Positions 7,358 through 54,252 of a DNA stretch of 64,000 nt are shown here, piece after piece. The stretch is taken from positions 558,001 to 622,000 of the forward strand of contig NZ_LT703003.1 in NCBI RefSeq assembly GCF_900149695.1. The letters run 5' to 3'. Under the pieces are notes generated by a model. That model saw nothing but the letters and a program-made list of their open reading frames with translations. It ran no database searches and was not told where the DNA came from. Position 1 is the stretch's first letter. Each line of letters begins with the position of its first letter. The stretch comes from Anderseniella sp. Alg231-50 (GTDB lineage Bacteria > Pseudomonadota > Alphaproteobacteria > Rhizobiales > Aestuariivirgaceae). The translations under genes were made by a program, and so were the position numbers.

Positions 7358-7385
7358 TGAACCATATCCCGACTGGTTTCGTTAA
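7358..7385 (+). promoter_or_regulatory. Putative sigma-E (RpoE/ChrR) promoter of the FAD-DUF1365-Cfa operon
   Basis: TGAACC (7358-7363), 16 bp, CGTTAA (7380-7385). This differs by one base in the -35 from the sites at 10822 and 18152 and has identical spacing. It lies about 70 bp before the first start codon. The motif fits the ECF11-type consensus known from Rhodobacter sphaeroides sigma-E targets (TGATCC -35). Confidence 0.7.
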
Positions 7386-7457
7386 TAGACGCGGAACAAG
7401 AACAAACAAGTCACCGGTTACCCGGTCCGATGTGCCTGTACCGGGAGTTGTATGCAC

Positions 7458-8801
7458 ATGAATAGACTTTCCATTGCTGTTATCGGGTCCGGCATTTCGG
7501 CCTTGTCAGCAGCCTGGCACCTGTCGCGGCATCATCACGTGACGGTTTTCGAACGGAACGGGCGGCTGGGCGGCCATTCAAACACTGTCGACGTAAACAC
7601 CGGCGACGGCTCAGTGCGGGTCGACACCGGCTTCATTGTCTTCAACCCGGCGAGCTATCCGAACCTGGTGGCACTGTTTGACCACCTGGGTGTGGACACA
7701 CCGGAAACCAACATGACCTTCTCAGCATCGCTCGACGATGGTGGGTATGAGTATTCCGGCAGTGGGCCCCGCGGCCTGTTCGGCCAGATGTCAAATGTCG
7801 CGTCGCCCAGGCACTGGCGCATGATTGCCGATATATCCCGTTTCTTCAAACAGGCCGCCGCGGACGCACCTGGCATTGATCACTCGGTGTCTCTGGGCAC
7901 CTGGCTGAAACAGAACAGGTATAGCGAAGCCTTTGTGCACAACCACCTGACACCGATGGCCGCTGCAATCTGGTCGACCCCGTCGGCCGATGTGCTGGAC
8001 TTTCCTGCCGCCAGCTTCATGCGGTTCTTCGCCAATCACGGCCTGCTGAAGGTGCGCAACCGGCCCAGCTGGCGCACCGTCGCCGGCGGCTCCAGGCAGT
8101 ATGTCCAGAAACTGGTTGCCCAAGCGCAGTTCAAGGTACGCACGAACAGTGGAATTACCGGGGTGTCCAGGATGCCGGACGGCGTTACAATCACAGATTG
8201 TCATGGCGGACAGCACAAGTTCGACCATGTGGTGATCGGAACCCATGCCGACGAGGCCCTGGCCATGCTGGATGATGCGGATGCAACGGAGAGCAACCTG
8301 CTTGGCAAGTTCGGCTATTCGGAAAACCTCGCCGTTCTGCATACCGACCCTGTCCAGATGCCGAAGCGACGCAGGCTGTGGTCAAGCTGGAATTATATTG
8401 AGCGGCCTGATGAAGCGGGGGAAAACCAGCTGACCGTTTCATACTGGATGAACTCGCTGCAGCCGTTGAGGACAGATACCGACCTGTTCGTTACACTAAA
8501 CCCCGCAGGCACAGTTGAACCCGCCAGTGTCCTGAGGCAGTTCAATTATACCCACCCGGTGTTCAATACAGCGGCCATGGACGCCCAGCAGGATTTGTGG
8601 GATCTGCAGGGCCGGCGCCGGACATGGTTCTGCGGCAGCTATTTCGGTTACGGGTTCCATGAGGACGCGCTGCAGTCCGGCCTTGCCGTGGCAGAAGACC
8701 TGACCGGCTGTCCAAGGCCCTGGGTGGTGGAAAACCCGTCGGGCAGGATACATCGCAAATCGCCCGCGTTGCCGGAACCTGTCCGTGAGGCGGCGGAATG
8801 A
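7458..8801 (+). CDS. FAD-dependent amine-oxidase-like oxidoreductase
   Basis: Flavoprotein with an N-terminal Rossmann dinucleotide motif (VIGSGISALSAAW) and the ERNGRLGGHS segment typical of amine oxidase/phytoene desaturase-like proteins, 447 aa. The substrate is not known from sequence. The constant linkage to DUF1365 and cyclopropane-fatty-acid-synthase-like genes in proteobacteria suggests it oxidises or desaturates a modified membrane fatty acid. The ATG at 7458 lies 10 bp after GGGAG; an in-frame ATG at 7452 is only 4 bp away and less likely. The gene is first in a three-gene operon joined by two ATGA overlaps, behind a sigma-E-type promoter. R. sphaeroides sigma-E controls similar genes. 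Confidence 0.85.
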   Translation: MNRLSIAVIGSGISALSAAWHLSRHHHVTVFERNGRLGGHSNTVDVNTGDGSVRVDTGFIVFNPASYPNLVALFDHLGVDTPETNMTFSASLDDGGYEYSGSGPRGLFGQMSNVASPRHWRMIADISRFFKQAAADAPGIDHSVSLGTWLKQNRYSEAFVHNHLTPMAAAIWSTPSADVLDFPAASFMRFFANHGLLKVRNRPSWRTVAGGSRQYVQKLVAQAQFKVRTNSGITGVSRMPDGVTITDCHGGQHKFDHVVIGTHADEALAMLDDADATESNLLGKFGYSENLAVLHTDPVQMPKRRRLWSSWNYIERPDEAGENQLTVSYWMNSLQPLRTDTDLFVTLNPAGTVEPASVLRQFNYTHPVFNTAAMDAQQDLWDLQGRRRTWFCGSYFGYGFHEDALQSGLAVAEDLTGCPRPWVVENPSGRIHRKSPALPEPVREAAE

Positions 8802-9589
8802 AGCGCGCTCCCACACAAGCCGCGCTTTATCACGGCAAGGTTGTGCACAAGCGGTTCACACCGGTACGGCACCGGCTTTCCTATCGTGTTTTCAGTATGT
8901 TACTTCCCCTGAAAGGTATCGACGAGGTGTGCGGAGTAACCAGGTTCCTGTCGCATAACCGGTTCAACCTGGTGTCCTTTCATGATCGCGACCACGGTTT
9001 GCGCGACGGCTCAAGCGTTGCGGATTTCGTCACGCGGACCATGCAGGCAGGCGGTGTCGATACGGACGCCTGCGAGCTGCTGGTACTGTGTTATCCGAGA
9101 ATTCTCGGCTACTGCTTCAACCCGCTGACGACCTACTATGCCGTGACCAAAGCAGGCGACATAACCGCCATGCTGTATGAAGTGTCGAATACGTTCGGCG
9201 AACACACCCACTATTTCGTAACCGGCGGCACAACCCGCAACGGTACGCTGGAGCAAGGGTGCAACAAGCTGTTTCACGTTTCGCCGTTCAACGAGGCAGA
9301 CGGCGAGTACGGCTTCCGCGTTACGACACCGGATGACAATGTTTGCGTCGGCGTATCGCTGCGGCGCGCAGGCAAGGCCATTCTCAATGCGTATTTCAAG
9401 GGCAGCAGGACCAGGCTGACATCGCGCAGCCTCGTGTCAGCAGTGGCGCGTCAGCCGCTGATGACCTGGAAAGTCATTGCCGGCATTCATTTGGAGGCAC
9501 TGCGCCTGTGGATGAAGGGGTTGAAACTACGCCGCAAACCGGGGTTTGCCGGTCTGACGGTGCACAGGACGGAAAGATTTGAACGATGA
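8798..9589 (+). CDS. DUF1365 family protein
   Basis: A 263-aa protein of the DUF1365 family. Visible hallmarks are the start ALYHGKVVHKRFTPVRHRLSY, the central CYPRILGYCFNPLTTYY, and YEVSNTFGEHTHYF. The family's biochemical role is not established; it is almost always encoded between an FAD oxidoreductase and a Cfa-like methyltransferase, as here. No signal peptide or clear transmembrane helix is seen, so it is probably cytoplasmic or peripheral to the membrane. It overlaps the genes on both sides by 4 bp (ATGA), so stoichiometric translation is likely. Confidence 0.85.
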   Translation: MKRAPTQAALYHGKVVHKRFTPVRHRLSYRVFSMLLPLKGIDEVCGVTRFLSHNRFNLVSFHDRDHGLRDGSSVADFVTRTMQAGGVDTDACELLVLCYPRILGYCFNPLTTYYAVTKAGDITAMLYEVSNTFGEHTHYFVTGGTTRNGTLEQGCNKLFHVSPFNEADGEYGFRVTTPDDNVCVGVSLRRAGKAILNAYFKGSRTRLTSRSLVSAVARQPLMTWKVIAGIHLEALRLWMKGLKLRRKPGFAGLTVHRTERFER

Positions 9590-10824
9590 GTGACGAACTA
9601 CTTCAAGCGGCACCGCGACCGGCCAGGTCCCGGCGGCGCCTGACCGGCCGCGTGCTTGAAATTCTCGGCAGGCGCATGGTGAAGGATCGCCTGCAAGGGC
9701 AACTGCGGCTGACCCTGCCGGACGGCCATCGGCTTGCCTTGGGGCAAAGGACAGCACACGGTGTTGATGCCGACCTGACGATAAACTCATACCGGGTCCT
9801 GGAAAAATGTATCCGGCGCGGATCGGTCGGGTTTGGCGAAGCCTATATGGCAGGCGATATAGACTGCAGCGACCTGGTGGCATTGTTCCGGTTTTTCCTG
9901 GTTAACCGTGGCGCGTTTCATGCAGCCGGCGGCAATCTGTTCAAGGTACGCCTCGGCGACAAGCTCGCCCACAAGCAGCGCAGAAACACACTTTCCGGCA
10001 GCCGCCGCAACATTGCTGCCCACTATGACATGGGCAATGATTTTTATGCCCACTGGCTCGATGCGGGCCTGACCTATTCAAGCGCCCTGTTCGACGGCAG
10101 GGATATCGACCTGGAAACCGCGCAACGCGCAAAATATGCCCGCGCCCTGGAACTGGCCGATGTGGCAGACGGGCAATCCATCCTGGAGATCGGCTGCGGC
10201 TGGGGCGGCATGGCGGAACATGCGGCACAGGCCGGCAAAACAGTGGACGGCATCACGCTGTCGGCCCGGCAGCTCGAATTCGCCAAAGACCGCATGAAAC
10301 AGCAAGACCTGGACGATAAGGTTTCCCTGGCGCTCAGGGATTACCGCCAGGTTGAGGGCCGGTATGATGCCATCGTGTCGATCGAGATGATCGAGGCCGT
10401 GGGCGAAGAAAACTGGCCGGCCTACTTTGCCACCCTGGCGCGCCTGCTGAAACCCGGCGGACAGGCCGTCATCCAGGCCATCACGATTGCGCCGGAACAT
10501 TTTGAGCGTTACCGGGCCAAGGTCGACTTCATACAGCGCTACGTCTTCCCAGGCGGCATGCTGCTGACGGACAGCGCGATTTCCGCACATGCAACCGATC
10601 ATGGCATGGCGTTGACGCAAACCCAGAAATTCGGTCGCGACTACGCCACGACCCTGCGCATGTGGAGGCAGAATTTCAACGCAGCCTGGGATGATATCAG
10701 TCCACTTGGTTATGACGAGAAATTCAGGCGCATGTGGTTGTATTACCTGACCTACTGCGAGGCAGGCTTTGACGACGGTGCCATTGATGTGGGTTTTTAC
10801 GTGCTGCGCAAGCAGGCGCACTGA
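9586..10824 (+). CDS. Cyclopropane-fatty-acyl-phospholipid synthase-like SAM methyltransferase
   Basis: Transfers a methylene or methyl group from SAM to a double bond in phospholipid acyl chains. The SAM-binding motif ILEIGCGWGGMAEHAA lies at about residues 197-212, preceded by the family signature AHYDMGNDFYAHWLD and followed by SIEMIEAVGEENW, which carries family active-site residues. Length (412 aa) is normal. Genomes often hold a housekeeping cfa plus this paralogue linked to DUF1365; the linked form may make methylated rather than cyclopropane products, but this cannot be told from sequence. It is coupled to DUF1365 by ATGA. Its stop codon lies inside the -35 element of the next promoter. 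Confidence 0.9.
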   Translation: MSDELLQAAPRPARSRRRLTGRVLEILGRRMVKDRLQGQLRLTLPDGHRLALGQRTAHGVDADLTINSYRVLEKCIRRGSVGFGEAYMAGDIDCSDLVALFRFFLVNRGAFHAAGGNLFKVRLGDKLAHKQRRNTLSGSRRNIAAHYDMGNDFYAHWLDAGLTYSSALFDGRDIDLETAQRAKYARALELADVADGQSILEIGCGWGGMAEHAAQAGKTVDGITLSARQLEFAKDRMKQQDLDDKVSLALRDYRQVEGRYDAIVSIEMIEAVGEENWPAYFATLARLLKPGGQAVIQAITIAPEHFERYRAKVDFIQRYVFPGGMLLTDSAISAHATDHGMALTQTQKFGRDYATTLRMWRQNFNAAWDDISPLGYDEKFRRMWLYYLTYCEAGFDDGAIDVGFYVLRKQAH

Positions 10825-10849
10825 TCCATCCGGCCAACGGTTTCGTTAG
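10822..10849 (+). promoter_or_regulatory. Putative sigma-E promoter overlapping the cfa stop codon
   Basis: TGATCC (10822-10827), 16 bp, CGTTAG (10844-10849). The first three bases of the -35 are the TGA stop of the cfa-like gene. It lies about 50 bp before the DUF3833 start. Spacing and bases match the sites before the upstream operon and before rpoE. Confidence 0.7.
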
Positions 10850-10900
10850 AGATATCAACGCTCTATTTCAACTCATAAAACCCGTGTCAGGACCCACGAA

Positions 10901-11371
10901 ATGCTTCAACGCAATCCGGACAGCATCGCCATGCCGGCATTCAACATGGCCGGCTATTTTGAAGGCCGCACCCGCGCCTGGGGAATGTTTGAGACCATCA
11001 CCGGCAAGGTCAAGAAATCCTTCGTGGCAGATATCGAAGGCCGCTGGGACGGCAGGGACTTCCTTCTGGAAGAAGATTTCACGTTTTCCGACGGAGAAAA
11101 GGAATCCCGCGTCTGGCGGTTGAAATTCAGCGATGACGGCAGCTTTCAGGCCAGTTGCGCCGATACACCGTCTCCGGGCAAGGGCGTAGTGACGGCCATG
11201 CGCGGAGACCTGGCCTATTCGATGGCCCTGAGGGTCGGCGGCAAGAAAGTGATGCTGTCATTCTCGGACCTGTTTTACCAGATCGATGAAAATACCGTGC
11301 TCAATCGCGCGAAGGTCAAGAAGTTCGGCATCCCCGTCGGCCAGGTCCTGATTTCTTTCCGCAAGGCGTAA
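10901..11371 (+). CDS. DUF3833 family protein
   Basis: A 156-aa protein matching DUF3833 by its FEGRTRAWGMFE opening and the DIEGRWDGRDFLLEEDFTFSDGEKESRVW block. Family members are often lipoproteins encoded in the same FAD oxidoreductase/DUF1365/Cfa cluster. This one has no lipobox or signal peptide, so it is probably cytoplasmic or peripheral. Function is unknown; a lipid-binding or lipid-modification role is inferred from context. The ATG has AGGA about 8 bp upstream. The gene has its own sigma-E-type promoter in addition to possible read-through from cfa. Confidence 0.8.
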   Translation: MLQRNPDSIAMPAFNMAGYFEGRTRAWGMFETITGKVKKSFVADIEGRWDGRDFLLEEDFTFSDGEKESRVWRLKFSDDGSFQASCADTPSPGKGVVTAMRGDLAYSMALRVGGKKVMLSFSDLFYQIDENTVLNRAKVKKFGIPVGQVLISFRKA

Positions 11372-11540
11372 GCGGCGCCTTCAGCGGGGCGTCCGGGCGG
11401 TTGCTGCCCGCGACGCTTCATCAAATACCCCGCCCCCGAAAACGGGAGACCTCGCCCGGAGGCGAGGCCAGCATCAGGTAAATGCCACTACAGAGGGGGC
11501 AGGCGGCAAATCCCAACGCATTCTGCAAACCCGGAAGAGT

Positions 11541-12158
11541 TTACTCTGCTGCTTCGCTGGGCGCCTGATCACACATCTGGGCGATCTGGTCACCGAGCAT
11601 GGAGATGGCGTGGCCAACATCGCGGATCTTGCTGTCCTGCTGCTTGTTTGCCAGTGAGAGCGACGCGGTAAAGTCCATGTCCATTCTCATATTGGCAGCC
11701 TTGCAGTTGCCGATCTGGGTATCGAGTTCGGACAGCTTTTCGCTCAGCGACTGTTCACGTTCAGCCAGTTCACGTTCCACATTGGCAACTTTCTGAAACA
11801 GCGCCTCTTCGCGTGCCGCCAGTTCCGCTTCAACCTGGGAAATCTTCTTGTTGAGAGCCTGTTCGCGCTCGGTTACATCCGACTGAACGTAGGTTATCTG
11901 CTGCTGCAGCATTTCCTCGCGCTTGTTCAGGTCTTCTTCACGCTCTTCGAGAATGAGCAAAAGCTCCTTGAGACGGGTTTCCGTCACCGTCAGGCTTGGA
12001 CCGACCAGAATGTCGCGCAGGGTCTCCAGCTGGTCTGGAGTTGGCTCGTGCTCCTGCTCGGAGACGGAATTGTGGCCCACAGGCGCTGGTGCGGTTTCCA
12101 TGGCTTCGTTCTCCTGCCCACTCGGCGCGGTGTTCTTTTTCCGGTTCAGTTTTTTCAT
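11541..12158 (-). CDS. Coiled-coil protein with four 18-residue repeats
   Basis: A 205-aa soluble protein of unknown function. Residues 1-50 are polar and probably disordered. Residues 60-150 form a long charged helix containing four consecutive 18-residue repeats (79-96, 97-114, 115-132, 133-150) with consensus (E/K/A)RE(E/Q)xL at each start. Eighteen residues equals a heptad plus a hendecad, which favours an extended coiled coil. The tail has two Cys (C152, C196). The start at 12158 is chosen for GGAGG 8 bp upstream; the frame stays open for 57 more codons to 12329 but has no ribosome site there. I do not recognise the family; a scaffold or structural role is a guess. Confidence 0.65.
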   Translation of the reverse strand: MKKLNRKKNTAPSGQENEAMETAPAPVGHNSVSEQEHEPTPDQLETLRDILVGPSLTVTETRLKELLLILEEREEDLNKREEMLQQQITYVQSDVTEREQALNKKISQVEAELAAREEALFQKVANVERELAEREQSLSEKLSELDTQIGNCKAANMRMDMDFTASLSLANKQQDSKIRDVGHAISMLGDQIAQMCDQAPSEAAE

Positions 12159-12511
12159 CGGCTCATCCTCCGTCCGGTCTGATTCTGCTTCAAACTGGGA
12201 CACATGCCCCTTCTGTAAGATGTGTTGAACATATTCATTATCAGCCAGATGATAGTTGAAACTGGCAAGATTTGGCTCAATTACAGGCTTTTTCGACCCA
12301 CTAAGCCCGTTACCCTGGGTAGTCCGCATTTGCTTTTGTCTTTCGTTTCAATCAGTAATGCCGTGAACTGACGCAAATGCCGTGCCAAACATACCCTTGC
12401 GTTATTTTTCGCTGTTTTTCGCCGATACCACCACTTATTCGTGTTGTTATGAAGCTCACTACACGTCCCAATTTGATTCAGAGATGATCTGTAATTCCCT
12501 TTTTGAACAAC
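12159..12511. other. Divergent intergenic region, comparatively AT-rich
   Basis: A 353-bp region between the coiled-coil gene and the MFS gene. It contains the GGAGG for the former and T-rich stretches (around 12410-12422 and 12496-12505). The frame of the coiled-coil gene remains open through half of it, so a longer product cannot be fully excluded. No RNA gene, repeat or clear promoter is recognised. Confidence 0.5.
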
Positions 12512-13726
12512 ATGTTAACCACTGCAAAAACAGCGCCAGCCATAGCCACCCTCATTCTGATCACCGGGCTTTCGACGCTTTCGTTGAACATGTTCATTCC
12601 GTCATTGTCGAAAATCGCGGAGACCTTCGACGCTGACTACAGCCTGACCAGCCTGTCAATCGCCGGCTATCTGGGCATGACGGCGATATTGCAGATCATC
12701 ATCGGACCCCTGTCGGACAGATTTGGCCGGCGCCCGATCCTGCTCGCCGGGCTGCTGATTTTCATCCTGGCGTCGGTCGGCTGTCTGCTGGCGAGGGACA
12801 TCTGGACATTTCTGTCTTTCAGGATGATCCAGGCCAGCGTTATCTGCGGGGCGGCGCTGTCGCCGGCAATCGTCAGGGACATGGTGCCCGAAAGGCAGGC
12901 GGCCAGTCTTCTAGGCTATGTCAGCATGGCGATGGCAGTTGCCCCAATGCTGGGTCCGATGTTCGGCGGACTGCTGGATGAACTGTTCGGATGGCGGGCC
13001 AGTTTCGTAGCTTTCGTCGGCATTGGCATGTTTGTTTTCGGCTTGTGCTGGATCGATCTGGGCGAAACCAACCATAATCGCTCGGATACTTTTTCCGACC
13101 AGTTTGGGACATATCCCGAATTGTTGTCCTCGAAACGCTTCTGGGGCTACTCAGCATGCATGGCATTCTCAACAGGCGCGTTTTATGCATTTCTGGCCGG
13201 TGTGCCATTGGTCGCCCAGACACTGTTTGGCATGTCGAGCGGAACACTGGGCATTTACATCGGCAGCATTACCGGGGGGTTCTTTGTCGGCAGTTTCCTG
13301 TCCGGCCGCTATGCGAAGCGCTATCACCTGACCAGCCTGATGATTGCTGGCAGGGTGGCCGCCTGCATCGGTCTTACAGCTGGCCTGATGATATTCCTGG
13401 CCGGATATGTGCACGAGTTATTCCTGTTCGGCGCGACGATTTTCGTCGGGCTCGGCAACGGCCTGACAATGCCCAGCAGCAGTGTTGGCGCGATGTCGGT
13501 CAGGCCGCAGCTGGCCGGCAGTGCAGCCGGCCTGTCCGGCGCCCTGACAGTGGCCGGTGGTGCCATCATCACCTATCTGACCAGCTCCATGCTGACGGAG
13601 CAAAACGGCGTCTATGTCCTGTTTGCCATGATGCTGTTGTGTTCAGCCCTTGGCTTGCTGGCAGCACTTGCGGTCCGCTGGCTGGATCAGAAAGAGTGCC
13701 AGAGCCAAAATCCGGACCATCGCTGA
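12512..13726 (+). CDS. MFS multidrug efflux transporter, Bcr/CflA type
   Basis: Inner-membrane drug/proton antiporter with about 12 hydrophobic segments. Visible signatures are LNMFIPSL in the first helix, GPLSDRFGRRP in the loop between helices 2 and 3, and the long amphipathic central loop after residue 185. Length (404 aa) is typical of Bcr/CflA exporters. The ATG at 12512 is preferred to a TTG three codons upstream; no strong ribosome site is seen for either. The substrate is unknown. It is monocistronic and convergent with the VOC-protein gene. Confidence 0.87.
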   Translation: MLTTAKTAPAIATLILITGLSTLSLNMFIPSLSKIAETFDADYSLTSLSIAGYLGMTAILQIIIGPLSDRFGRRPILLAGLLIFILASVGCLLARDIWTFLSFRMIQASVICGAALSPAIVRDMVPERQAASLLGYVSMAMAVAPMLGPMFGGLLDELFGWRASFVAFVGIGMFVFGLCWIDLGETNHNRSDTFSDQFGTYPELLSSKRFWGYSACMAFSTGAFYAFLAGVPLVAQTLFGMSSGTLGIYIGSITGGFFVGSFLSGRYAKRYHLTSLMIAGRVAACIGLTAGLMIFLAGYVHELFLFGATIFVGLGNGLTMPSSSVGAMSVRPQLAGSAAGLSGALTVAGGAIITYLTSSMLTEQNGVYVLFAMMLLCSALGLLAALAVRWLDQKECQSQNPDHR

Positions 13727-13743
13727 GCCGGACTGCCGGTGGA

Positions 13744-14499
13744 TCAGCCCCGGCGATCCTCAATGAGCAGGCCCGCATACCCGGCTCTGCCGGAAGCTGC
13801 GGGCCGAACCGGCCTTTCCGGCTCCGTCAGGTGCTGCAACTCCAGCGTTGTGTAAGGCCGCTGCCACAGCCACGGCCGGTCCTCTACCGCTTCGATGTCT
13901 CCGTTGGGCGGCGTTTCACCGGTGAATGCCAGAAAATACAGCGTGAATCCGCGCCCGGCGACAACCTGTTTTGACAGCAGGCGCATGCCCATTGAACGCT
14001 GATAAAGCGCAAGAGCGTTATCAAGGTTCGCCACCCGCAATGTAATCTGTCCAATCTGCGCACCGCCACCCAGCGGCAGGTCAGGATTGCCCGGCGATGT
14101 GCGCGGCCGGCCTTCAAATGTGTGCTGCAGCAACTCGATCTGAAAACCATCCGGGTCGGTGAGGTGGCACATGTAACCGATATCGAGAAACTGGCGCGGC
14201 TGCGTGACCGCCACACCCGCCCGGCTGAGCTGTTCAAACGCCATGTCCACATCCGGCAGCGTGATGCCGATCTTCCAGTATTCATCAGACCCATCATGGA
14301 CGTAAGGGTCTGGAGAAGATGCCGGCCGCAGCTCCAGGCCTGCTCCAGGCCCGCCATAGCCCAGCCGCAGGAATTCACCGGAGCGGTCAACGGCCATGCC
14401 GAGATGCCGGGTATAAAATGCGGCAAGCTGTTCAGGCGAGGCCACGTTCAGGGCCACCCCTGCGAGCCTGTGGGCTGCGGCTGACCCGCCAGTGTTCAT
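13744..14499 (-). CDS. VOC superfamily protein (glyoxalase/dioxygenase-like), two modules
   Basis: A 251-aa protein with two vicinal-oxygen-chelate modules. The first covers about 10-130 (GVALNVASPEQLAAFY ... DPDGFQIELLQ) and the second about 145-250 (ITLRVANLDNALALYQRSMGM). The DPDG(F)xIEL motif and Glu positions fit a metal site in the first module; the second lacks an equally clear one. It could be a glyoxalase I-like lyase, an extradiol dioxygenase or a resistance protein. The ATG has GAGGGG about 10 bp upstream. It lies about 70 bp from the EamA gene on the same strand and may share its transcript. Confidence 0.75.
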   Translation of the reverse strand: MNTGGSAAAHRLAGVALNVASPEQLAAFYTRHLGMAVDRSGEFLRLGYGGPGAGLELRPASSPDPYVHDGSDEYWKIGITLPDVDMAFEQLSRAGVAVTQPRQFLDIGYMCHLTDPDGFQIELLQHTFEGRPRTSPGNPDLPLGGGAQIGQITLRVANLDNALALYQRSMGMRLLSKQVVAGRGFTLYFLAFTGETPPNGDIEAVEDRPWLWQRPYTTLELQHLTEPERPVRPAASGRAGYAGLLIEDRRG

Positions 14500-14569
14500 A
14501 CCAGCATCCCCTCATGAACAAAATTGACCATCGTTCCCGCCTGAAAACAGTATCTGCAGCAAACAACTA

Positions 14570-15457
14570 TCACACTTTCACCGGTCGCCATCCAGCCGCC
14601 AGAAGTATACCGCCTGTCGCCAGGAAAAGCCCTGCCCAGGCCAGCAGGCTCGGCCATTCGCCCAATACGGGAATTGCCAGCAGGGCAACCATGCCGGGCA
14701 CCATCGCCATCATCGCAGCGGTTGCCGACGGGCCTATCGAGCGCACCGCTGTTGTAAACAGCAGCACAGCCACCACGCTGGGACCGAGTCCCTGATAGGC
14801 ACCCTGCAGAATGATCTCGGACCAGGGCGCTGCCTGCACCGCCTTGGGCAGAAAGGCCAGGTAAAGCAGGCCGAACCATGCGAGATTAACCGTTGGAATA
14901 CACACCATGGCCTGCATCGGCGTGAGCTGCCAGGCCTTGGTGCCGATCATGTTGATGGCAATAAACAGGGCCGAGCCGATGAACATGAGATGGCCAATCC
15001 ACGCATTGGGCGCCACGCCGCCGGTATCCCGGTCCCAGCCGATCAACGCGCAGCCGACCAGTATCACGGCCATGCCGGCAACTTTCCATGTATCCGGCCG
15101 GTCTTTCAGCCATATCCAGCCCAGAATGGCCGCGAATACCGGCAGTGTGCCGTTCATCATGATGCCTGCATGCGAGGCAGGTGCGAACTGGAAACCGCCG
15201 AAGGCCAGCAGCAGATACGGGACACCCTGGCCGCATGAAATGAGAAAAATCTGCCACCATCGCAGGTTGCGTGGCCAATAGCGCCAGACAAAGGGCGCCA
15301 CAGCAACGGTTGCAACCACAAACCGCAATGCAACCATGTCGTAGATAGTCAACGTCTGAACAACGCCGAGCCTCGACACCACAACCCATCCCGACCAGAT
15401 AAAGATGACACCGAGCGCGGCAAACCATCCGATCAGGGGGTGGGCAGGGGCAGACAT
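14570..15457 (-). CDS. EamA/DMT-superfamily transporter
   Basis: A 295-aa inner-membrane protein with ten hydrophobic segments in two EamA repeats, the architecture of the drug/metabolite transporter superfamily. The first begins GWFAALGVIFIWSGWVVVSRLG and the second around WIGHLMFIGSALFIAINM. Members export amino acids, nucleotides or other metabolites; the substrate here is not predictable. It is first of a possible two-gene minus-strand unit with the VOC gene. Confidence 0.85.
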   Translation of the reverse strand: MSAPAHPLIGWFAALGVIFIWSGWVVVSRLGVVQTLTIYDMVALRFVVATVAVAPFVWRYWPRNLRWWQIFLISCGQGVPYLLLAFGGFQFAPASHAGIMMNGTLPVFAAILGWIWLKDRPDTWKVAGMAVILVGCALIGWDRDTGGVAPNAWIGHLMFIGSALFIAINMIGTKAWQLTPMQAMVCIPTVNLAWFGLLYLAFLPKAVQAAPWSEIILQGAYQGLGPSVVAVLLFTTAVRSIGPSATAAMMAMVPGMVALLAIPVLGEWPSLLAWAGLFLATGGILLAAGWRPVKV

Positions 15458-15606
15458 GGCAACGGGTTTTCCTGAAAAGTCATGCGGTTTTCAAAACAGC
15501 AGAGGACCGGCCATCTGAAAACGGGGAAGTGAATAGGCTTGCACGCAGTTTTGCGCCTGCATCCTGCTTAACACACACATGGCAATCCGGTTCATGACAT
15601 TTTCAG

Positions 15607-15948
15607 CTAGCATCCATGCGCCAGCGCGCAGGCATCGGCATCATCGCTGCAATCCGCCAGCAGGCCGGCTTCACCGCCGGCAAGTGCGTCACACTCCGCC
15701 TTGTAGGACAGGCATTCGGAGACGGTGGGCGTGGCAGGACACACCGGCAGTTCCATTTTCCCGATACAACGGGTAAAATCCGCATAGCAAACCGACCGCC
15801 ATTGCGCGTCCCCGAAAGACAGGCGGGCGCAGCTTGCATATTCCCACCAGCACGACGGCGCATCATTTTCATCCTGAGCCTGAGCGAGACCTGCACCGAT
15901 CACACAGCAGCCAACAAGGACAATTGCCAATGTGTTGATTTTCCCCAT
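15607..15948 (-). CDS. Small exported cysteine-rich protein
   Basis: A 113-aa protein with a signal peptide (MGKINTLAIVLVGCCVIGAG, probable cleavage after AQA near residue 24). The mature part has ten cysteines, an even number consistent with periplasmic disulfides, plus an adjacent Trp pair after the first Cys. A lipobox-like LVGC lies at 11-14, but the hydrophobic run continues past it, so signal peptidase I processing is more likely. The ATG at 15948 has GGAGG upstream; the in-frame extension to 15993 has none. I do not recognise the family. Its neighbours are an EamA gene and the rpoE-chrR-SDR operon, with about 100 bp to the latter. Confidence 0.7.
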   Translation of the reverse strand: MGKINTLAIVLVGCCVIGAGLAQAQDENDAPSCWWEYASCARLSFGDAQWRSVCYADFTRCIGKMELPVCPATPTVSECLSYKAECDALAGGEAGLLADCSDDADACALAHGC

Positions 15949-16054
15949 ATGCCCTCCTGTCCATCGCCAACAGACTAACGCCATCTGCACCACGTTTGAA
16001 ACAGGGTGTGCAATACCGGGGCTTCAAGCCGGACAGATACCTGCGCCAAACACG

Positions 16055-16819
16055 TCAGGTGCGCTGCACGAAGCGTGCCATCAGCCAGAAGTAGAGCCGG
16101 TAGGGCAACACGCGCAAAAGCTTCATGATCACGGCCAGGCGGGTCGGAAACACGATCTCGAACCGGTCGGACCGCAACCCTGCAATAATGCGGCGCGAGG
16201 CGTCTTGCGGCTCCATGAGAAACGGCATCGGAAAGTCATTGGTATCTGTCATCGGCGTACGCACGAACCCGGGATTGATGATCTGCACCTTGATGTTGTG
16301 CTGCGCGGCATCGGTTCGCAAGGCTTCCGCCATGGAGATCAGGGCTGCCTTGGTGGGCGCATAGGTAACCGCCCGTGGAATGCCGCGATATCCGGCAACC
16401 GATGCTACCGGTGCGATGTGACCGGCGCGACGCCTGATCATGGACGGCAGAACAGCATCAACCAAATTGGCCGCACCTTCATAATTGACCCGCATTGCAT
16501 TGATCGAATCCTCCGCCTGGAAACTCTCGATATCCCGGATGATCCAGATCCCCGCCGCCATGATAACAAGGTCCGGTGGCCCGATGTCCGCTTCAATCGC
16601 CCGGGCGGTTTTCCGGCAGGCGGCCAGATCAGTCACGTCAAGCGGGTAACTGCAGATGTTGGGACTGTCAGCGGCAAGTTCCGCAAGTGCATCGCCTGAG
16701 CGCGCTGATGCCGCAACCATTGCGCCCTGACCGGCAAGATCAAGTGCAAGCTGGCGGCCGATGCCGGAGCTCGCACCGGTAATCCATACTGTTTTCCAGG
16801 ATGCTTGGGATTGATCCAT
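16055..16819 (-). CDS. Short-chain dehydrogenase/reductase in the rpoE-chrR operon
   Basis: A 254-aa classical SDR. The cofactor motif TGASSGIG lies near residue 15, an AAG motif is present (VIMAAGIW), and the catalytic YAPTK (Tyr-x3-Lys) follows SVAGYRG with the serine upstream. It likely reduces or oxidises a carbonyl/hydroxyl with NAD(P). It starts 12 bp after chrR on the same strand, so it is transcribed from the sigma-E promoter at 18125-18152. An SDR is also part of the sigma-E regulon in R. sphaeroides. A role in repairing or modifying oxidised lipids is inferred from that context only. Confidence 0.87.
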   Translation of the reverse strand: MDQSQASWKTVWITGASSGIGRQLALDLAGQGAMVAASARSGDALAELAADSPNICSYPLDVTDLAACRKTARAIEADIGPPDLVIMAAGIWIIRDIESFQAEDSINAMRVNYEGAANLVDAVLPSMIRRRAGHIAPVASVAGYRGIPRAVTYAPTKAALISMAEALRTDAAQHNIKVQIINPGFVRTPMTDTNDFPMPFLMEPQDASRRIIAGLRSDRFEIVFPTRLAVIMKLLRVLPYRLYFWLMARFVQRT

Positions 16820-16831
16820 GCTTGCGGAGCG

Positions 16832-17491
16832 TCAGATACCGACAATGGGTTGCAGCAACCGGGGTACCAGCCCCTTGAAACGTGCCGGCGCTTCGGTGGC
16901 GATCAGGCAAATGCAGTCTTCGCCGTCCTCAATCACCGGCTGGTGTTCAATATCTTCGTCCAGGTCAGCCACGTCACCAGGCGCAAACCGCCCGATCTGG
17001 TCACGATAGGCACCACGCAGGATCAATGTCATTTCCTGGCCTGCATGACCGTGATCAGGCAGTTTATGCCCGGGCCGAACCTTCAACAGGTAGAGGCTGG
17101 AGCCATCAGGATTTTTCTCAATGACATGAATACCGACACCTGGTCCCGCCGTCTTCCAGCGCACATCATCAAGCTTGTGGTCAAGCAAGCGGGATACCGG
17201 CAAGGGCAATGACGGATCCGGATCGTCAGACACATCCCTGCGCGACTTCGGTTGCACCCAGTCGCTGCCGTCAATGCGTTCGAACACCGATGACAGGGCA
17301 TCAGAACTCATCTGCTCTTTTTCACTGGTCTCCAGCAATGCGGCCCCGACGGCCTCGGCAGTGCGCACCTTGGCCCGACAATGATCGCACATGGCAACAT
17401 GACTTGCAGCCACCACGGACAGACAGTTGGAAAGGCTGCCGCCCGCATAGGCCACTACTGTTGCATCGTCCAGATGGAACACCGTATTCAT
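16832..17491 (-). CDS. chrR: ChrR-type zinc anti-sigma factor with cupin domain
   Basis: Anti-sigma factor that holds sigma-E inactive until singlet oxygen or a related stress acts. The N-terminal zinc domain has H6, H31, C35 and C38, the same spacing as the characterised R. sphaeroides ChrR ligands. The C-terminal cupin has H147-x-H149-x3-E153 and H183, matching the second zinc site needed for singlet-oxygen sensing in that protein. The 219-aa length is typical. It overlaps rpoE by 4 bp (ATGA), coupling antagonist to sigma factor, and is followed 12 bp later by an SDR gene. Confidence 0.93.
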   Translation of the reverse strand: MNTVFHLDDATVVAYAGGSLSNCLSVVAASHVAMCDHCRAKVRTAEAVGAALLETSEKEQMSSDALSSVFERIDGSDWVQPKSRRDVSDDPDPSLPLPVSRLLDHKLDDVRWKTAGPGVGIHVIEKNPDGSSLYLLKVRPGHKLPDHGHAGQEMTLILRGAYRDQIGRFAPGDVADLDEDIEHQPVIEDGEDCICLIATEAPARFKGLVPRLLQPIVGI

Positions 17492-18090
17492 CTCAAGTCC
17501 TCCAGAACTGAGCCCATCTTGCGATAGGCCAGTCGCATTCTAGATTTGACAGTGCCCAGCGGCACGTCGAGTTTTTCCGCTATCTCGGATTGCGTCAGGT
17601 CGTCCATGAACGCCATGACAATCACTTCGCGCTGGTCATCCGGCAATACGTCAAGCGCCTCGGTTACCGCCAGATCCTGCTGCTTGCTTATTACGACGTC
17701 ATCGCTGGCCGGATCATCGCTGGCTTCCTCATAATCATCTATGTCGGTAAAGTACCGGGACCCTTCACGGCGCAGCCGGTCGATGCGCAGGTTGCGGGCA
17801 ATGGTATAAATCCATGTCGTCACCGACCCCTTGCCGGGGGAAAACATGCCGGCCTTGTTCCAGACTGCAATCATTGCGTCCTGTACCAGGTCTTCAGCGA
17901 GCTCGGCATTGGCGCCCTTGCGCATCATGAACCCCTTCAAGCGGGGCCCAAAATGCTCAAAAAGCTGCGCAAAAGCCTGACGGTCGCGCCGTTCAGCAAC
18001 GTCATTCAACAGCTGGGCAAACAACTCAGCCTGTGGGTTTTTGCCGGTTTGCCGGCGGATTCCATCTGTCACAGCGGGGGCAATCACCAT
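17488..18090 (-). CDS. rpoE: ECF sigma factor RpoE (ChrR-associated, ECF11 type)
   Basis: Extracytoplasmic-function sigma factor, 200 aa. Region 2 spans about 30-95 (AFAQLFEHFGPRLKGFM ... VWNKAGMF ... TWIYTIARNLRIDRLRRE). Region 4 spans about 135-190 (LDVLPDDQREVIVMAFMDDLTQSEIAEKLDVPLGTVKSR). The start is placed at 18090. The frame is open to an upstream ATG at 18126, but that codon overlaps the -10 element of the promoter found here, so a transcript from it could not encode those first 12 codons. It forms an operon with chrR and an SDR, is probably autoregulated, and the same promoter motif occurs at the lipid module. Confidence 0.93.
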   Translation of the reverse strand: MVIAPAVTDGIRRQTGKNPQAELFAQLLNDVAERRDRQAFAQLFEHFGPRLKGFMMRKGANAELAEDLVQDAMIAVWNKAGMFSPGKGSVTTWIYTIARNLRIDRLRREGSRYFTDIDDYEEASDDPASDDVVISKQQDLAVTEALDVLPDDQREVIVMAFMDDLTQSEIAEKLDVPLGTVKSRMRLAYRKMGSVLEDLR

Positions 18091-18124
18091 AAATTCGGTC
18101 TCAGGCTCGGTTGCAATTAGTATC

Positions 18125-18152
18125 ACTACGCTGGATGCTCAGTTGCGGATCA
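18125..18152 (-). promoter_or_regulatory. Putative autoregulated sigma-E promoter of rpoE-chrR-SDR
   Basis: On the minus strand: TGATCC (18147-18152), 16 bp, CGTAGT (18125-18130). The -35 is identical to the site at 10822, and the spacing is identical to both other sites. Transcription would begin near 18118, giving a leader of about 28 nt before the ATG at 18090. Confidence 0.75.
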
Positions 18153-54189: not shown

Positions 54190-54229
54190 CCAGACCATCC
54201 CGGGCTCACCTGAACCCGGGGTGGTCTGG
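54190..54229 (+). other. Strong hairpin between chvI and chvG
   Basis: Arms CCAGACCATCCCGGG (54190-54204) and CCCGGGGTGGTCTGG (54215-54229) pair over 15 positions with one T-G wobble and a 10-nt loop. No T-run follows, so it is not a standard terminator. It ends 23 bp before the chvG start and may stabilise or process the mRNA or lower chvG translation. Confidence 0.6.
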
Positions 54230-54252
54230 CAGCGTTTCAGCAGGGACGGCCA

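Follow-up and report, generated by a model that had tools for sequence, protein, structure and literature searches.

Does the gene pair rpoE-chrR of Anderseniella sp. Alg231-50 govern a lipid gene module encoded a few kilobases away? The genes lie in a stretch of 64,000 nucleotides (nt), located at C1:558001-622000 in a genome of 4.61 Mb and 8 contigs, and this whole stretch is referred to below as the window. RpoE is an extracytoplasmic function (ECF) sigma factor of the sigma-E, ECF11 type, ChrR its zinc-dependent anti-sigma factor, and promoter-like sites stand in front of the pair itself, of the lipid module and of a DUF3833 gene. We regard as the best explanation, and as highly probable, that this is an RpoE-ChrR (ECF11) pair with the core photo-oxidative stress regulon of an Anderseniella species. 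The features concerned are given here in window coordinates, Nn denoting a spacer of n bases; genomes (G), contigs (C) and loci (L) carry our own numbers.

7358..7385, plus strand: promoter-like site TGAACC-N16-CGTTAA (TGAACC 7358-7363, CGTTAA 7380-7385; direct read), 5' of ufaD-ufaO-ufaM
7458..8801, plus strand: ufaD homologue, flavin amine-oxidase-like, expected fatty acyl desaturase of the RSP1091/RPA2571 type (Pfam Amino_oxidase, NAD_binding_8)
8798..9589, plus strand: ufaO homologue, DUF1365 protein of the RSP1090/RPA2570 type (Pfam DUF1365, E 2.5e-71)
9586..10824, plus strand: ufaM homologue, putative S-adenosylmethionine-dependent fatty acyl methyltransferase, "cfa" in the initial annotation (Pfam CMAS)
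10822..10849, plus strand: promoter-like site TGATCC-N16-CGTTAG (TGATCC 10822-10827, CGTTAG 10844-10849; direct read), 5' of DUF3833
10901..11371, plus strand: DUF3833 protein (Pfam DUF3833, E 1.9e-43)
16055..16819, minus strand: short-chain dehydrogenase (SDR), third gene of the rpoE-chrR unit (Pfam adh_short)
16832..17491, minus strand: chrR, zinc-dependent anti-sigma factor with cupin-like domain (TIGR02451; 2z2s_B, E 6.8e-48)
17488..18090, minus strand: rpoE, ECF sigma factor, sigma-E of ECF11 type (2q1z_A, E 3.1e-40; Pfam Sigma70_r2, Sigma70_r4)
18125..18152, minus strand: promoter-like site TGATCC-N16-CGTAGT (TGATCC 18152-18147, CGTAGT 18130-18125), 5' of rpoE-chrR-SDR, putatively autoregulatory

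Direct reading of the sequence places the three motifs where the initial annotation had put them, with spacers of 16 bases in all three and each 5' of the unit it had named: the operon of a flavin adenine dinucleotide (FAD) gene, DUF1365 and a cfa-like gene, then DUF3833, then rpoE-chrR-SDR. From the end of the -10 element to the start codon there are 72 nt for the FAD gene (7458), 51 nt for the DUF3833 ATG (10901) and 34 nt for the rpoE ATG (18090); the cfa-like gene terminates at the TGA of the TGATCC at 10822. In the literature the RpoE-ChrR (ECF11) promoter is given as TGATCC-N16-CGTA, and a site of this form, by which an ECF11 system would regulate itself, is found at 18152-18125. Scored against this consensus, the rpoE site has 10 of 10 letters, the DUF3833 site 9 and the ufaD site, which reads TGAACC instead of TGATCC at -35, 8. 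The idea that these are matching sigma-E promoters therefore stands as a general fit to the ECF11 pattern, and the full TGATCC-N16-CGTA match is confined to the rpoE site.

The regulatory pair itself has the make-up of an ECF11 system. The sigma factor is closest to that of Rhodobacter sphaeroides, its nearest solved relative being the sigma-E of the ChrR complex (2q1z_A, with SigK next at E 1.4e-24), and the adjacent gene, overlapping the rpoE stop codon with its start by 4 nt, encodes a ChrR-family anti-sigma factor with zinc and cupin-like domains. The rpoE start is left between ATG 18090 and GTG 18087, because the homologous locus L120 reads ATA at the first; a longer open reading frame (ORF) beginning at GTG 18126 falls inside the promoter and is an unlikely start, since it would overlap the -10 element. 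ChrR scores 185.3 bits against TIGR02451 (cut-off 124.5), matches Pfam Cupin_7 as well and aligns to 2z2s_B across residues 5-207. In this alignment the claim of eight intact zinc ligands is borne out: the positions which we take to be the ligands of R. sphaeroides ChrR (H6, H31, C35, C38; H141, H143, E147, H177) are matched letter for letter in the window protein (H6, H31, C35, C38, H147, H149, E153, H183). Also kept are two cysteines that align with C187 and C189; these were described as dispensable for induction and E147 and H177 as required (PMC6852236). By ChrR, the nearest named relatives are Anderseniella metagenome-assembled genomes, at 92% and 89% identity, and an SDR gene lies directly behind chrR in 16 of 30 chrR loci, the window included. 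Two other stretches in the genus (G150:C16:176410-176628 and G154:C699:3704-3937; L233, L229) match the N-terminal zinc domain of ChrR only, at 42-44% identity, and are possible second, cupin-less anti-sigma factors.

The lipid operon is very likely the ufaD-ufaO-ufaM pathway of furan fatty acid synthesis, as judged from its gene content and residues. In R. sphaeroides, UfaM (RSP2144), UfaD (RSP1091) and UfaO (RSP1090) convert cis-vaccenate to 9M5-furan fatty acid, DUF1365 is present in UfaO homologues, and in R. palustris RPA2569 (ufaM), RPA2570 (ufaO) and RPA2571 (ufaD) are needed and sufficient for the same product (PMC7380195). The window has an amine-oxidase-like, a DUF1365 and a CMAS-like gene in the order ufaD-ufaO-ufaM, with reading frames overlapping one into the next. 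The label "cfa" for the third gene was not sustained, the gene being most likely ufaM: its product stays below all NCBIfam cut-offs for cyclopropane fatty acid (CFA) synthases (PRK11705 248.5 against 400, CPFASynBruc 246.7 against 600, CfaB 211.6 against 650), and alignment with the CFA synthase 6bqc shows S166 in place of the conserved cysteine of YSC and Q297 in place of a conserved histidine, with the glutamate of the bicarbonate site kept (E270). The replaced residues are presumably C139 and H266 of the bicarbonate site of E. coli CFA synthase. Among matched rows of the fetched loci, 38 of 40 have S and 2 of 40 have A at position 166, and 19 of 19 have Q at position 297, counts that include the window's own loci and duplicates. 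With scores under the cut-offs together with S166 and Q297, the methyltransferase is therefore read as a probable UfaM.

That this module would be under the local sigma factor is supported by the position and conservation of the sites, and is expected, since furan fatty acid genes are a published sigma-E target: in R. sphaeroides they belong to the sigma-E regulon, and they are part of the core regulon predicted across alpha- and gammaproteobacteria. About 4.7 kb of other genes separates the lipid/DUF3833 unit from the rpoE unit, encoding a coiled-coil-like protein, an MFS transporter, a glyoxalase-fold protein, an EamA transporter and a small cysteine-rich protein. All five have homologues in L121 and L122, the MFS protein only partially in L122. 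The small cysteine-rich protein (15607-15993, minus strand) has no Pfam match and stands beside the SDR gene in those two loci also.

Conservation was surveyed across the order in the best 30 of 101 chrR genomes, the best 30 of 94 FAD genomes and 30 loci from 38 DUF3833 genomes, by scoring the best TGATCC-N16-CGTA within 350 nt upstream and the first 90 nt of each gene; with the window included this covered 27 rpoE, 29 FAD and 29 DUF3833 loci, the rest being without usable upstream sequence or tblastn match. Sites at 9/10 or 10/10 precede rpoE in 21 of 27 loci, the FAD gene (ufaD) in 23 of 29 and DUF3833 in 14 of 29. At the other spacings from 12 to 20, a score of 9/10 is reached by at most 4 rpoE, 2 FAD and 1 DUF3833 loci, so that the signal is specific to N16; in base-composition shuffles a score of 9 arises in about 1% and a score of 8 in 13-15%. 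Two ufaD loci of one genus, both in genomes with no chrR match (L066, L068), lack the site.

Within the genus the ten motif letters are invariant, in 4 genomes for rpoE, in 3 of 3 for DUF3833 and in 5 for ufaD, with mean spacer identities of 0.67, 0.33 and 0.65, respectively, the last over 4 of the 5; L121/G150 denotes a single genome, as does L122/G153, and each entered the count one time only. Six genus promoter sets taken together show a motif identity of 1.00 against spacer identities of 0.33-0.67.

The genes themselves also travel together. Among 150 genomes, the window genome included, 83 have chrR and ufaD, 10 chrR only, 7 ufaD only and 50 neither, retaining 93 of 101 chrR genomes (E 1e-15 or better) and 90 of 94 ufaD genomes (E 1e-80 or better); both sit on one contig in 73 genomes, and in 70 of these they are separated by no more than 12 kb. 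RSP1091-RSP1090 homologues are reported to be well conserved in Alphaproteobacteria and frequently found beside rpoE-chrR (PMC3818230), and our own count agrees with that report of adjacency. Four genomes of only 1.3-1.4 Mb (family f4: G003, G054, G091, G125) have kept both genes, a hint that the response is worth retaining even when genomes shrink.

Elsewhere in the genome, candidate sites extend the set, and the description of the regulon as local is apt for the linked units in the window and too narrow beyond it, given genus-conserved sites 5' of a photolyase gene, a BLUF gene and folE. The genome has 11 N16 matches, 3 of them the window sites; 4 of the other 8 sit 33-47 nt 5' of an ORF. 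A photolyase target is an independent prediction of a sigma-E regulon, and a putative site is indeed found there: TGAACC-N16-CGTTA, 34 nt 5' of phr (757186), the sole PF03441 photolyase-family gene of the genome, with TGAACC-N16-CGTT kept in 5 of 5 genus genomes with usable upstream sequence while the spacers drift. The genes held to be core members of the ECF11 regulon are thereby represented by sites 5' of ufaD, DUF3833 and phr, all three deviating at -10, and by the SDR gene within the rpoE unit.

The BLUF site, TGATCC-N16-CGTTA (G000:C1:1337751-1337777, minus strand; loci L100, L173), stands about 91 nt 5' of a start shared with relatives, upstream of a gene identified by Pfam BLUF; all 4 genus members that have a close homologue carry TGATCC-N16-CGTTACA, again with drifting spacers, and TGATCC-N16-CGTTTGT is found in another genus (L177). 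For a BLUF gene as a sigma-E/ChrR target we found no statement in the literature, searched mainly outside subscription journals. The gene for GTP cyclohydrolase I, folE, is preceded by TGAACC-N16-CGTTAAAT (G000:C4:58628-58654, plus strand; L104, L193), which is present with drifting spacers in 5 of 6 genus members, the exception being G151. Rhodobacter folE2 is RpoE-dependent (PMC7074977), and the type I folE would be its analogue in Anderseniella.

Outside the genus the support for these extra targets is thinner (18 of 24 phr, 5 of 20 BLUF and 14 of 24 folE loci were scanned overall). Four of 13 phr loci there score 9 or 10 at N16 (L155, L156, L164, L170), all from chrR genomes; five further chrR-bearing genomes (L157, L159, L162, L163, L167) score 7-8, and four loci without a full-length chrR match (L158, L160, L161, L165) score 6-7. 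For folE, 9 or more is reached in 1 of 8 loci, L208.

The remaining matches are of mixed kind. An AraC-type regulator gene lies 3' of the site at C1:381262, whose counterpart in G150 reads CGATCC-N16-CGTA with a changed spacer (by eye), and is a lead only. Four matches (C1:37956, C2:492022, C2:7737, C1:199325) lie inside other frames or have no near gene and were taken as chance. At a spacing of N17, TGATCC-N17-CGTA (G000:C1:727806-727832, plus strand; L005) stands 49 nt 5' of an msrA-like gene and recurs in G150 (L235), a conservation that is uninformative because spacer and flanks are nearly identical too; TGATCC-N17-CGTTA (G000:C1:1986270-1986297, minus strand; L116), 167 nt 5' of a gene that is rpoH-like by its translation, is a candidate, rpoHII being a direct sigma-E target in R. 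sphaeroides. In a sister genus (L180 and L182, from G135 and G068) a folE-like paralogue adjoins a BLUF gene, and TGGTCC-N16-CGTAAC immediately precedes the two, which may form a folE-BLUF operon under sigma-E; where these genes neighbour each other in G104 (L179), no site of the TGGTCC-N16-CGTAAC type is seen.

Motif counts do not clearly exceed chance, and position and conservation decide the case. Where 1.9 occurrences of TGATCC-N15..17-CGT would be expected, the window has 4, a number reached in 10 of 100 shuffles. Genome-wide, at N15/N16/N17, TGATCC..CGTA occurs 9/4/5 times, TGATCC..CGTTA 0/3/2 and TGAACC..CGTTA 1/4/3; summed, this gives 10/11/10, no clear excess at N16, and the frequency comparison that the initial annotation had named as a refuting check lends no support. 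Backward patterns gave 2, 1 and 6 matches against 18, 5 and 8 forward, a control that was not relied on because backward TGATCC contains CTAG. A matrix derived from other genera, using 20 rpoE promoters that had themselves been chosen by consensus similarity (20 of 26 non-window rpoE loci; L021, L022, L023, L024, L026 and L029 have no convincing N16 site near the start and were excluded), ranks the three sites 1, 2 and 3 among all window positions, and dinucleotide shuffles with at least three sites that good number 3 of 200 on 12 columns and 9 of 200 on 10. A further site, TGAACC-N16-CGTTTC at 54211-54238 (plus strand), lies in a hairpin-like repeat (by eye) and ends 14 nt 5' of the ATG of a two-component sensor kinase gene.

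Beside the flat genome-wide count, several observations weigh against the proposed regulon. The 7358 and 10822 sites read CGTT instead of CGTA at -10, and the TGAACC..CGTT sites are about as near to the consensus of another sigma factor, EcfG, as to that of ECF11. The 8/10 of the window's ufaD site is equalled or exceeded by about 14% of shuffled upstream regions, and the 54211 site scores 14.27 to its 14.29 by matrix on 12 columns and ties with it on 10. Among the DUF3833 loci, 15 of 29 are without a 9/10 site, and a ufaM homologue lies within about 1.5 kb in only 5 of 30. Two genomes dissociate site and regulator: G032, assembled in 770 contigs, has no chrR match and yet a 10/10 site 5' of ufaD (L047), and G151, 85% complete, retains TGAACC-N16-CGTT 5' of phr, although no ufaD and, for chrR, just a weak cupin-like match were found in it. 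Finally, the Fisher p-value of 5e-22 for co-occurrence of chrR and ufaD overstates independence, because the genomes share ancestry.

Could the 7358 and 10822 motifs be mere chance, with only the rpoE site a real sigma-E promoter and the lipid operon using another? The missing genome-wide excess and the deviation of both sites from consensus speak for it; the motif letters that stay fixed while spacers drift at homologous genus positions, and the sites that precede the same genes across the order, make it very improbable. Hardly more credible is that the third operon gene is a true CFA synthase and the module makes cyclopropane, not furan, lipids. The product belongs to the Pfam CMAS family and matches 6bqc significantly, and cyclic fatty acids have likewise been seen in a Halomonas UfaM strain (PMC12089945); against this stand the sub-threshold CFA-synthase scores, the substitutions S166 and Q297 of the conserved cysteine and histidine, the placement of the gene behind ufaD and ufaO homologues, and the demonstration that the three R. 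palustris homologues suffice for a furan fatty acid.

More substance attaches to EcfG, although we still consider it unlikely that the ufaD, phr and folE promoters of Anderseniella serve sigma-E and general-stress EcfG alike, with the rpoE promoter purely ECF11. All five genus effector sets (ufaD, phr, folE, BLUF, DUF3833) have CGTT for CGTA, and three of them (ufaD, phr, folE) TGAACC for TGATCC; rpoE alone keeps TGATCC/CGTA. EcfG promoters allow N17 spacing also. Both departures lead towards the EcfG consensus GGAAC-N16-CGTT (PMC7083833): read with N17, the sites of ufaD, phr and folE reach 8/9 for EcfG and 8/10 for ECF11, the rpoE sites 6/9 and 10/10. Outside the genus, by comparison, the full TGATCC-N16-CGTA is found in 16 of 23 ufaD, 2 of 4 phr (L155, L156) and 1 of 1 folE (L208) sites scoring at least 9/10; in R. 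sphaeroides, PhyR has an influence on RpoE-dependent expression (PMC5830050), and the phr site persists in G151 without a full chrR match. The EcfG form GGAAC-N16/17-CGTT is nevertheless missed by every genus site read, the first base being T and not G, and the spacing to CGTT is 17 against 16 in PMC7083833; the window has no exact GGAAC-N16/17-CGTT, and no second sigma gene was found in it by tblastn with RpoE at E 1. Other genera have TGAACC with CGTA (L061, L062, L067) or combine CGTT with a TGATCC -35, and since CGTT occurs elsewhere in the order (L028, L033, L042, L048, L220, L222, L225), sigma-E may simply tolerate it. A broader proposal, which we consider equally unlikely, is that the Anderseniella regulon has been rewired, with hybrid effector sites readable by sigma-E and EcfG, a pure rpoE site and the BLUF receptor itself as a target; if true, the response would couple light sensing to photo-oxidative defence.

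The RpoE-ChrR regulon proposed here resembles that of R. sphaeroides in its rpoE-chrR pair, zinc ligands, furan fatty acid genes, SDR and photolyase as members. The SDR gene is in the rpoE unit in Anderseniella and in the RSP1091-1087 operon in R. sphaeroides; ufaM shares one operon with ufaD-ufaO in Anderseniella, whereas RSP2144 is a separate locus; and in contrast to R. sphaeroides, Anderseniella effector promoters have CGTT, with candidate sites at a BLUF gene and at type I folE where Rhodobacter has folE2. The likeness to R. palustris RPA2571-2570-2569 (ufaD, ufaO, ufaM, consecutive as here) lies in the genes. The P. syringae PSPTO_1043 and Shewanella RpoE2 regulons have TGATCC-N16-CGTA-type promoters 5' of rpoE and of a phrB/cfa locus, backed by chromatin immunoprecipitation sequencing (ChIP-Seq) or mapped starts; CGTA is found in 18 of 18 tabled P. 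syringae promoters, whereas CGTT is frequent in Anderseniella. With the EcfG promoters of Alphaproteobacteria, the ufaD, phr and folE sites have the AAC and CGTT letters in common, but they start with T, not G, and have a spacer one longer than that in PMC7083833.

By analogy with these relatives, the N-terminal zinc domain of ChrR would hold sigma-E in the resting state, and singlet oxygen, the probable signal in Anderseniella, or organic peroxides would cause a turnover of ChrR that requires the cupin-like domain. Freed sigma-E would then start transcription, as predicted from the sites and their conservation, at TGATCC/TGAACC-N16-CGTA/CGTT in front of rpoE-chrR-SDR (autoregulation), ufaD-ufaO-ufaM, DUF3833, the photolyase gene, the BLUF gene and folE, and UfaM, UfaD and UfaO would turn vaccenoyl chains into furan fatty acid, the products expected of this pathway being 11Me-12t-18:1 (11-methyl-12-octadecenoate) and 9M5-furan fatty acid. 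In R. sphaeroides, singlet oxygen triggers ChrR turnover, for which the furan fatty acid genes are required (PMC6852236), and furan fatty acid is destroyed by singlet oxygen; if furan lipid genes are likewise needed for turnover here, a feedback loop would be closed.

The locus is a sound instance of a known regulon in a new host, the arrangement itself being well described; our literature search found no ChrR report for Anderseniella. Because the lipid module is identified as the probable furan fatty acid pathway, a measurable lipid is predicted. Should the BLUF gene, type I folE and the AraC-type regulator hold as targets, the extended regulon would widen toward light sensing and pterin supply, and the CGTT common to the genus's five effector promoter sets would offer a testable case of overlap between two ECF sigma factors.

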